From positions 1 through 64,000 of the forward strand of contig JAPLCC010000048.1 in assembly GCA_026392415.1 (NCBI GenBank): DNA of 64,000 bases. The letters run 5' to 3'. The translations under genes and the position numbers were made by a program. Shown here in pieces: positions 8,605 to 48,210 of the stretch; positions within the stretch are counted from its first letter, which is position 1, and each line of letters begins with the position of its first letter. The notes beneath the pieces are model-generated. The model saw nothing but the letters and a program-made list of their open reading frames with translations. It did no database searches and had not been told where the DNA came from. This DNA comes from Propionibacteriales bacterium (GTDB taxonomy: Bacteria > Actinomycetota > Actinomycetes > Propionibacteriales > Nocardioidaceae).

Positions 8605-8684
8605 GGTCGTAGTCAATCAGCGACGCGCACCCGATGCACCGCCCATCCACCCGGACTGCGGCAATGTCCGGCATGATGGTCCTG

Positions 8685-30524: not shown

Positions 30525-30566
30525 GACGGGCTCCTTGTGCTTGGGAAACTACTTCACCCCTGAGGC

Positions 30567-44965: not shown

Positions 44966-45622
44966 TCAGTCGACTTCCGGGATCCATTCCTTCTTGGCGA
45001 CCAGCAGGCCGTCGCCCACGGGCAACAGCGCCGGCACCAGACCCTCGGTCGCGGCGACCTGCTGCACGAGGTCGCGGATCGCGACCGTCTCCTCGTCGCG
45101 CTGGGCCGGGTCGGCGACCTTGCCGTGCCAGAGCGCGTTGTCGAAGGCCACGACGCCGCCGGGACGAAGCAGGCGCAGCGCCTCGGTGAGGTAGGCGCCG
45201 TACTCGCGCTTGTCGCCGTCGGCGAAGACGAGGTCGTAGTGGCCGTCGGTGAGGCGGGGGAGGACGTCGAGGGCGGACCCGGCGATCGTTCGGGCCCGCT
45301 GGGGTGCCACACCGGCCTCCTTGAAGGATTCGCGGGCCAGCCGCTGGTGCTCGGCCTCCACGTCGACGGTCGTGAGGACGCCGTCGGAGCGCATTCCGCG
45401 CAGCAGCCAGACGCCGGAGACGCCGGTGCCGGTGCCGATCTCGACGACGGCGCGGGCCTCCAGCACGGACGCCAGGAACCGGAGAGCGGCGCCGCTGCCG
45501 GAGCCGATCGGGGTCACGCCCACCTCTGCGGACCGCGCGCGGGCGGCGGCGAGGACTTCGTCCTCGTCGACGTAGGTGTCGGCGTACGTCCAGCTGGTTG
45601 CGTTGATCGGTGTCGGAGCCAC
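44966..45622 (-). CDS. O-methyltransferase
   Basis: This 218-residue cation-dependent methyltransferase of the COMT type has motif I VEIGTGTGVSGVWLLRGM, VDVEAEHQ and FADGDKREYGAYL with the metal Asp. It corresponds in position to Rv1220c, which lies divergent from sigE in mycobacteria; the substrate is unknown. GTG 45622 lies 7 bases after TTAGGGT on the minus strand; GTG 45631 would overlap that box. Confidence 0.88.
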   Translation of the reverse strand: MAPTPINATSWTYADTYVDEDEVLAAARARSAEVGVTPIGSGSGAALRFLASVLEARAVVEIGTGTGVSGVWLLRGMRSDGVLTTVDVEAEHQRLARESFKEAGVAPQRARTIAGSALDVLPRLTDGHYDLVFADGDKREYGAYLTEALRLLRPGGVVAFDNALWHGKVADPAQRDEETVAIRDLVQQVAATEGLVPALLPVGDGLLVAKKEWIPEVD

Positions 45623-45672
45623 GGGTCTCACCCTAAGGCTCGCGGCCGCTCCGGCGGCGGACCCGACGCCGG

Positions 45673-45698
45673 GGAACACAAGTTCCACTCCATTCGTT
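45673..45698 (+). promoter_or_regulatory. ECF sigma (SigE-type) promoter candidate upstream of sigE
   Basis: GGAAC (45673-45677) and CGTT (45695-45698) are spaced by 17 bases, the consensus -35 and -10 of actinobacterial SigE promoters. GGAAC-ACAA-GTTCC (45673-45686) also forms an inverted repeat. It fits the autoregulatory promoter expected upstream of sigE. Confidence 0.6.
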
Positions 45699-45724
45699 GT
45701 GGCCAATGTTGAGGGAGTTCACAG

Positions 45725-45798: not shown

Positions 45799-46336
45799 AT
45801 GAAGGAGCCCGTCGATCCCCAGGTGTCCGAACAGGACCTGAACTGGGAGAGCATCGTCGACCAGCACTCCGATCGTGTCTACCGCCTTGCGCTGCGCCTG
45901 ACCGGCAACCGCCACGACGCCGAGGACCTCACCCAAGAGGTGTTCGTCCGGGTCTTCCGCTCGCTGCACACCTACTCGCCCGGCACGTTCGAGGGCTGGT
46001 TGCACCGGATCACCACGAACCTGTTCCTGGACCAGGCCCGCCGCAAGCAGCGGATCCGCTTCGATGCGCTCTCCGACGAGCGTGCCGCGCGCCTCGCCAG
46101 CTCCTCGCCCGCACCCGAGGTCGCCTTCGCCGACCTGAACTTCGAGGACGACGTCGAGGCTGCCCTCGCGTCGCTCCCGCCCGACTTCCGCGCCGCTGTC
46201 GTGCTCTGCGACATCGCGGATCCACCGCGGTCGCGCGCTCCTGCGCTCGGCGCTGGCGCACCGCGCCCCGCAGGAGGGTCGCACCCGTTACCTCGGACCC
46301 GCGACCGTGTCCCTGGCCGGGGGAGCAACCGCGTGA
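45799..46336 (+). pseudogene. sigE: ECF sigma factor SigE, broken by an internal frameshifting deletion
   Basis: Region 2 is intact ([40 protein letters not shown]) and region 4.1 is present up to RAAVVLCDI at 46215. The frame then reads [11 protein letters not shown]. One base later, in another frame, the normal end of the family appears from 46217: [10 protein letters not shown], running to a TGA at 46334-46336. Family members have about 21 residues between CDI and RIHRGR (the recognition helix of region 4.2). Here one base remains, so about 62 bases appear lost. The protein cannot bind -35 DNA. The changed frame continues into the anti-sigma gene without a stop. The start ATG 45799 follows GAAGAAGG. 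This may be a real mutation or an assembly error. Confidence 0.85.
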
Positions 46337-46803
46337 TCGGACACCTCGGCAACCGGATCAGCGCGCTCCTCGACGGACAGTTGTCCGCGAAGGACACCGA
46401 AGAGGCGTGGGCGCACGTCTACTCCTGCCACGCCTGCCGTGACCTCGTCGAGCGCGAGGGATGGGTCAAGACCCGTCTCGCAGGTCTCTGCGGGGGCGAG
46501 CGCAATGCGCCTTCGGCGCTCAAGGGATCGTTGCTCAGCATGCCCCCGGGCGACGCCTTCCTGGTCGAGGCCGACGCGGGCCACGGCTCACGGCGCGGTG
46601 CCGTGTTGATCGGGGGCAGCGCGGTCGGTGCCGCGATGGTCGGCGTCCTCGCGTTCGGCCTGACGTCCGGCGGCGTGCCGCCCGCCGACCGCCGACCGCC
46701 GGCCACACAGATCAACACGAGCGTTCCGTCAGCGCCCGCCAGTGGAGCGACCACGCCGGCCACGGGCACAGCGGTCACTCCCATTCGCCGGATGCTTCCG
46801 TAG
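46333..46803 (+). CDS. Zinc-finger anti-sigma factor (RseA-like)
   Basis: This 156-residue anti-sigma factor has the ZAS motif H28-x3-C32-x2-C35 and one membrane helix ([20 protein letters not shown], about residues 88-107), with a Pro/Thr-rich tail outside. It would hold SigE at the membrane until stress. The GTG start overlaps the normal sigma stop (GTGA) with GGGGGAG upstream, so it can be translated by itself. In this sequence the frameshifted sigma frame also reads through it, giving a potential 335-residue fusion. Confidence 0.88.
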
Positions 46804-46851: not shown

Positions 46852-48210
46852 GTGAACGACGAGTACGACGCCGACCGGGAACCCACCGAGCCGATCGAGG
46901 GTGCCCCGCAGTGGGCACCTCCGTCGCCGGGTTCGGAGCGTCCCGCAGCCGCGACACCCGAGCCGACCACGCCGTTGCCGCTCGCACCGTCGCTGATGCC
47001 GCCGGCACCGCCCGTCCCGCCGAGCGCCGCCGACCTCTCGATCACGCGACCGGTCCTGGGCGCAAGCCATGACGCCGCGCCCCATCACCGCGGCAACGGC
47101 CCGTCCCGTCGCATCTGGCCCGCCATCGTGGCGTTGTCCCTGGTCGTCGGACTCGGCGGCGGCTTCCTCGGTGCCCTGGCCTACGACAAGATCGCGGACG
47201 ACGGCGCGAGTGGCCCCGGGTTCGCTGACGGTGGGCTCTCGGACGTCGACCTGGAGGACCTGCCGCCGCTCGAGGCACCCGGCTCGATCGCCGCGGTCGC
47301 ACAGGCGGTGTTGCCGAGCACGGTCCAGATCATCGCGGAGTACGACGGACAGGAGGCCGGCGCGACCGGCTCCGGCTGGGTGATGGACAAGAACGGCCAC
47401 ATCATCACCAACAACCACGTCGTCGCCTCGGCTGCCAAGGACGACGGACCGATCGTGGTCGTCGACCACGATCGCAACCGGTACGAGGCAACGGTCGTCG
47501 GCCGTAGCCCGGTCTACGACCTCGCGGTCCTGTACGTGAAGGACTTCGAGGACCTGGTCCCCGCCAAGCTCGGGTACTCCAAGAAGCTGCGGGTCGGTGA
47601 GCCGGTGGTCGCCATCGGCTCCCCGCTGAGCCTGCCCGACACGGTCACCTCCGGCATCGTGAGCTACCTCCAGCGGCCGGTCACCACGGGCTCCTCGGCC
47701 GACGAGTCGTCGTACATCAACGCGGTGCAGACCGACGCGGCGATCAACCCCGGCAACTCCGGCGGCCCTCTCGTCAACATGCAGGGCGAGGTGATCGGCG
47801 TGAACTCCGCGATCGCGACCGCCGGCGGCGGCTCGATCGACTCCGAGGCCGGCAACATCGGCGTCGGTTTCGCCATCCCGGTCGAGCAGGTCCGCACGAC
47901 CGCCGACCAGATCCTCAAGACCGGCAAGGCGCAGTACCCCGTCATCGGTGCCAAGGTGAAGACGGGCGGCATCCCGACCGGCGAGGGCGCCGAGCTCGAC
48001 GAGATCCTCGCGAACAGCCCGGCGAAGGACGCCGGACTGCGCAAGGGCGACCTGATCACCCACATCAACGGCGACCGCGTCACCGAAGGCATCGCGCTGA
48101 TCGTCGCGATCCGCAGCTACCAGCCCGGACAGACGGTGGAGTTCACCATCACCCGCGGCAACACCGAGGGCAAGTTGGTCAAAGTGGTGTTGAACGGCGA
48201 GGACGGCTGA
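46852..48210 (+). CDS. HtrA/DegP-type serine protease with PDZ domain
   Basis: This 452-residue membrane protease has a Pro-rich cytoplasmic N-terminus, one membrane helix (IVALSLVVGLGGGFLGAL), a trypsin-like domain with His 189 (NNHVVA), Asp 223 (YDLAVLYV) and Ser 303 (NPGNSGGPLV), and one PDZ domain (about residues 365-452). It matches the mycobacterial HtrA encoded after sigE and rseA. It degrades misfolded envelope proteins. GTG 46852 lies behind CATGAT at leaderless spacing. Confidence 0.93.
   Translation: MNDEYDADREPTEPIEGAPQWAPPSPGSERPAAATPEPTTPLPLAPSLMPPAPPVPPSAADLSITRPVLGASHDAAPHHRGNGPSRRIWPAIVALSLVVGLGGGFLGALAYDKIADDGASGPGFADGGLSDVDLEDLPPLEAPGSIAAVAQAVLPSTVQIIAEYDGQEAGATGSGWVMDKNGHIITNNHVVASAAKDDGPIVVVDHDRNRYEATVVGRSPVYDLAVLYVKDFEDLVPAKLGYSKKLRVGEPVVAIGSPLSLPDTVTSGIVSYLQRPVTTGSSADESSYINAVQTDAAINPGNSGGPLVNMQGEVIGVNSAIATAGGGSIDSEAGNIGVGFAIPVEQVRTTADQILKTGKAQYPVIGAKVKTGGIPTGEGAELDEILANSPAKDAGLRKGDLITHINGDRVTEGIALIVAIRSYQPGQTVEFTITRGNTEGKLVKVVLNGEDG

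Follow-up and report, generated by a model that had tools for sequence, protein, structure and literature searches.

A sigE gene lacking 62 bases of coding sequence in a draft Nocardioides genome

The sigma factor SigE of Nocardioides and Mycobacterium tuberculosis is represented by the NCBIfam model NF007229 (PRK09647). In M. tuberculosis, sigE is followed by rseA-htrA-tatB, according to excerpts of PMC10027907. The definition of class I zinc anti-sigma factors given in an extract of PMC7406223 is an H-x3-C-x2-C motif. Sigma and anti-sigma factors can also be fused, and PMC8999054 describes such ECF–anti-sigma fusions in IutY of ECF243 and, by domain structure, in ECF48, ECF52 and ECF53. Here, we describe a sigE that lacks part of region 4.2 and whose frame continues into the adjacent anti-sigma gene. 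A survey of published titles and abstract openings returned none on this sigE lesion.

The sigE locus and its junction

The window, the whole stretch of DNA analysed, is bases 1–64000 of contig C46 (115,677 bases) of the draft genome G000, which comprises 4,185,465 bases in 60 contigs. The genes at the locus are, in order, an O-methyltransferase gene on the minus strand, sigE, an anti-sigma gene and an HtrA-like protease gene, and the counterparts of all four are in the same order in G143, a complete genome of a relative. The features are:

44969–45706, minus strand: O-methyltransferase gene upstream of sigE (Pfam Methyltransf_3, E 2e-35)
45799–46215, plus strand: intact front of sigE, residues 1–139, region 2 and linker to CDI (Pfam Sigma70_r2)
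46213–46219, plus strand: junction with 62 bases absent (gap between 46216 and 46217, with a slide of 3 possible)
46217–46336, plus strand: tail of sigE in the original frame to TGA, out of frame with the front (translation)
46216–46332, plus strand: scrambled linker of 39 residues in the fusion frame, rich in P, R, G and A (no match in Pfam)
46333–46803, plus strand: anti-sigma gene with a zinc-type motif, one hydrophobic stretch and its own GTG (alignment with 16 relatives)
46852–48210, plus strand: downstream HtrA-like serine protease gene with PDZ domain, open frame (Pfam Trypsin_2 and PDZ_2; NCBIfam degP_htrA_DO, E 1.8e-74, under the model cut-off)

Starting at 45799, the sigma frame reads normally through the residues CDI, the last codon of which ends at 46215. 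The front matches Pfam Sigma70_r2 (PF04542) over residues 20–85 (E 6.5e-21), and its best match in the PDB is chain 9m9d_F, named SigE (E 1.6e-49), which we take to be the M. tuberculosis protein. It shares 94% amino acid identity with the two nearest relatives. The first-pass annotation, made from the DNA and its open reading frames, had described a normal ECF SigE up to 46215, and the domain match, the PDB match and the frame bear this out. The gene is SigE, in a sigE/anti-sigma/htrA locus, and the names of the best-matching sequences place the draft in Nocardioides.

A single G at 46216 is the sole base between the last CDI codon and the codons CGG ATC CAC CGC (RIHR), which begin at 46217 and from which the original sigma frame runs to a TGA at 46334–46336. 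These coordinates hold as first described, with one base preceding the R-I-H-R-G-R codons. The same annotation had proposed alignment with SigE of related Nocardioides, and this revealed the extra segment in all 109 relative loci (the 29 best of a genus search and the best 80 of at least 461 confirmed matches, together representing 108 distinct gene sequences). In every one of them, exactly 21 codons (63 bases) separate CD[x] from R[IV]HR[GA]R. As G000 has 1 base in place of 63, 62 bases are missing, in agreement with the earlier estimate of about 62 bases and 21 residues.

The missing 21 residues comprise the first helix of region 4.2, its turn and the start of the recognition helix, the remainder of which is still present in the DNA, out of frame. 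This is a small correction to the earlier claim that the 21 residues are the recognition helix. At E 0.01, the window protein had no match to region 4 (PF08281), whereas that of the relative L007 matched at E 2.6e-18. Likewise, the window protein scored 226.2 bits against the NCBIfam SigE cut-off of 265, which L007 passes (308.6). These results support the view, also taken in the first-pass annotation, that the DNA as written would encode no working SigE, region 4 being lost.

The remaining sequence is well preserved. In its original frame, the sigE tail is 88% identical to that of a relative over 41 residues. Against three relatives, dN/dS was 0.07–0.14 for the sigE front and 0.17–0.25 for the anti-sigma gene; for the tail in its original frame it was 0.09, 0.06 and 0.53, the last from only 34 codons and the most distant of the three. 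There were no private changes in sigE at sites conserved in at least 80% of the 109 loci, and the departures at conserved sites, S60 and E116, are common to one or both of the nearest relatives. As the remainder of sigE looks unharmed, and so does the anti-sigma gene, the 62-base loss is either very recent or not real.

When the junction pattern was used to query 215 Nocardioides genomes, allowing up to three mismatches, the only genome returned was G000 itself. The front half of sigE was found at E 1e-30 or better in 210/215 genomes. A 46-residue region 4.2 query spanning the missing part matched at E 1.6e-19 or better in 208/215 and at E 8.1e-13 or worse in seven (G000, G136, G155, G162, G166, G191 and G163; counted from the complete table of genomes by eye). 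Of these, G136, G155, G162, G166 and G191 also have no sigE front half. Region 4.2 is thus kept, by query match, in 208 of the 210 genomes that have the front, so sigE loss is rare, and on these comparisons the lesion is private to G000. Apart from G000, G163, which is listed as 61% complete, is the only genome with a sigE front and no strong region 4.2 match.

Broken genes in the draft and the origin of the gap

The first-pass annotation had offered natural inactivation or an assembly error, and this was the right pair of options. We tentatively place first, at a little under an even chance, the loss of the 62 bases in the assembly of the draft. Two ends around a GC-rich stretch would have been joined without the bases between them, and the organism may well carry an intact SigE. 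A joining fault at this junction is what we infer from the state of the gene and of the draft. The lack of private change at conserved sites, the low dN/dS of the front and the rarity of sigE loss in the genus are all consistent with it, as are the other suspect lesions in G000.

These lesions emerged from comparison of approximately 658 kb of G000 with G143 (one 11 kb piece was in two comparisons). Three coding genes were judged broken in G000, namely sigE, an oxidoreductase-like gene in C25 and a urocanase gene in C22, versus one in G143. At C25:28557 (in L142), 52 coding bases are missing from a gene whose protein we read as flavin-dependent oxidoreductase-like. The loss begins at the end of a 141 bp exact repeat (C25:28416–28557), and in the other copy of the repeat, in C17 near 7900 (L254:2208–2348), the frame is broken at the same point. 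Outside the 141 bp exact stretch, the two paralogues are only approximately 83% identical, and a repeat-edge assembly fault is the most likely source of the double break. In C22 near 183395 (in L280), a gene that is presumably urocanase has its frame broken by a single additional base within a short run of C (TTCCCAGGG versus TTCCAGGG in G143). Both lesions are in the same 60-contig draft as sigE, and favour a draft error there.

Other parts of the comparison weigh against a draft error. Opposite C7:149089 (in L235), a short conserved gene that is intact in G000 is one base short and frame-broken in G143, so the contrast in broken genes is three to one and not three to none. As the automatic frame-phase test did not flag sigE, it misses events near gene ends and its counts are lower bounds. 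The sigE junction is well inside the 115,677-base contig, and a search with 151 bases around it found no near-exact repeat; the best other match was 80% identical over approximately 44 bases (E 0.003, among 40 scored of 167 candidates). No exact match longer than 15 bases was found elsewhere within the 1.0 Mb searched, and no second copy of the missing segment was seen in the G000 assembly, where the next match after the out-of-frame tail was 49% identical. As no near-exact second copy was found at sigE, the type of fault seen in C25 and C17 is not reproduced there.

Most flagged events were set aside. Those in the window near 2778, 8605–8619 and 30534–30554 are intergenic by alignments and ORFs. 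By eye, C25:108218, C25:134654, C25:174017, C46:101644, C22:139293, C22:61922, C11:78550, C11:274292, C11:275374, C11:105173, C7:56791 and three further C11 events are intergenic or gene-boundary changes, as are the flagged events of the further-region comparison other than urocanase. Realignment at C46:96974 gave no shift. In-frame stops within stop-to-stop ORFs were many in both G000 and G143, among those listed. At C48:92189 of G000, approximately 40 intergenic bases present in G143 are missing, so that the stop of the upstream gene overlaps the start of the following one. One short dispersed repeat (L146:11590–11638, approximately 46 bases) has at least 27 matches in G143, with 40 of 596 candidates scored.

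Scarcely less probable than a draft error, and nearly level with it, is a real and very recent deletion that inactivated sigE, arising over a TCG repeat through either end joining or slippage during replication. The 62-base deletion could slide by 3 bases (TCG) in four of the five relatives shown and by 0 in the fifth. Random 62-base deletions slide by 3 bases in approximately 6% of cases, and we regard the slide as a weak sign of slippage. It speaks for a real deletion and against a draft error, as does the lack of a repeat at the site. A hairpin in the missing segment was rejected as the cause, as perfect 4–7 base stems are present in 104 of the 108 relatives scored (one of the 109 was dropped by the motif used) and are not special to G000. 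The clean small indels of G000 relative to G143 comprised 30 deletions and 11 insertions, and further regions, without the flank filter, added seven deletions and two insertions. This excess may be a mark of true compaction in a smaller genome (4.19 Mb for G000 versus 5.17 Mb for G143), in which other genes are broken too. In M. tuberculosis, sigE null mutants have been made and studied (excerpts of PMC10027907). After a real deletion, the cell would make region 2 with a scrambled tail able to run on into the anti-sigma factor; a separate anti-sigma factor could still be initiated from the GTG of its gene, and control of stress through SigE would be lost. Against a real deletion are the strong region 4.2 match in nearly all front-bearing genomes, the absence of signs of decay elsewhere in sigE and a lesion of the same draft, in C25 and C17, that is best read as a joining fault.

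The anti-sigma gene and the frame that enters it

The anti-sigma gene begins at its own GTG at 46333, with GGGGGAG at 46319–46325, seven bases upstream, so a separate anti-sigma factor can be made. The H-x3-C-x2-C motif of class I zinc anti-sigma factors is present (residues 206–213 of the fusion frame), and H28, C32 and C35 of the gene are invariant in the 17 aligned rows (the window and 16 relatives). At E 0.01 the protein had no match in Pfam, and its match to NCBIfam antisig_RsrA (E 8.6e-8) was 32.2 bits against a cut-off of 62.5. Only its position next to sigE suggests that this putative anti-sigma factor would bind and inhibit SigE. In three relatives, L007, L010 and L016, sigE and the anti-sigma gene are separated by a similar insert of approximately 70 bases (core CCGCTTCGCTCCTCCGG) that has a start codon on either side. 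L008 lacks the insert, and a 21-base probe for it found none in the window.

As the first-pass annotation had stated, the shifted frame has no stop before the anti-sigma gene. It is open from 45799 to a stop at 46801–46803 and encodes 334 amino acids that include region 2, the zinc-type motif and, near residues 268–286, a hydrophobic stretch. That annotation had emphasized a single fused protein; the frame for one is present, but the emphasis is unsupported. In 101 of the 109 relatives this frame likewise continues beyond the sigma stop, in 96 of them for at least 150 bases; in five it stops within 71 bases and in eight it closes before the sigma stop. In most relatives a start codon overlaps the sigma stop, lying one base to its left (GTG at -1 in 92 and ATG at -1 in 13), so a frame shifted in this phase enters that of the anti-sigma gene. 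Given the 96 relatives in which the frame remains open, the fusion frame is for the most part a side product of high GC content and gene overlap. With the start of the anti-sigma gene retained and the junction found in 1/215 genomes, we consider the frame mostly incidental and probably not a new protein design.

It is accordingly very unlikely that a single deletion step created a functional fusion, in which membrane-tethered sigma region 2 joined to the anti-sigma factor would act as a sink, a dominant-negative or a self-locked stress regulator. The three elements in one frame and the existence of complete sigma–anti-sigma fusions (PMC8999054) lend it something. So do the two nearest relatives, which would give no fusion, as in L007 the shifted frame ends 71 bases beyond the sigma stop, where that locus has its insert, and in L008 it ends before the stop; openness is thus not automatic in this branch. 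Against it, besides the frame's openness in other relatives and its restriction to one genome, are the absence of region 4 and a linker made of out-of-frame sigma DNA. Ribosomal frameshifting at the junction, favoured by a tail frame that remains open as far as its stop, has a negligible chance of restoring a working SigE, as the product would still be without approximately 20 region 4.2 residues that are kept in all 109 relative loci.

Comparison with known systems

If the deletion is real, G000 comes from a naturally occurring sigE null strain of a genus in which sigE is near universal, and the strain would be useful for asking what role SigE has outside mycobacteria. If instead the draft is in error, it calls for caution: where sigma and anti-sigma genes overlap in GC-rich DNA, a small indel can produce what looks like a plausible fusion protein.

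The gene resembles SigE of Nocardioides and M. tuberculosis in its front 139 residues and differs in that region 4 is unmatched and the score, 226 bits, is below the cut-off. With the ECF–anti-sigma fusions described in PMC8999054, it shares a sigma factor, a zinc-type anti-sigma factor and a hydrophobic stretch in one frame. However, an ECF52-like fusion would have both sigma regions, 2 and 4, complete ahead of its anti-sigma portion, whereas G000 has no region 4 match, its linker is out-of-frame DNA and its junction is confined to a single genome of the genus. The junction also differs from the C25/C17 lesion of the same draft in having no repeat, but like frame-broken genes in draft assemblies, sigE in G000 has one clean frame-breaking loss that relatives do not share, in a gene that is otherwise unharmed.
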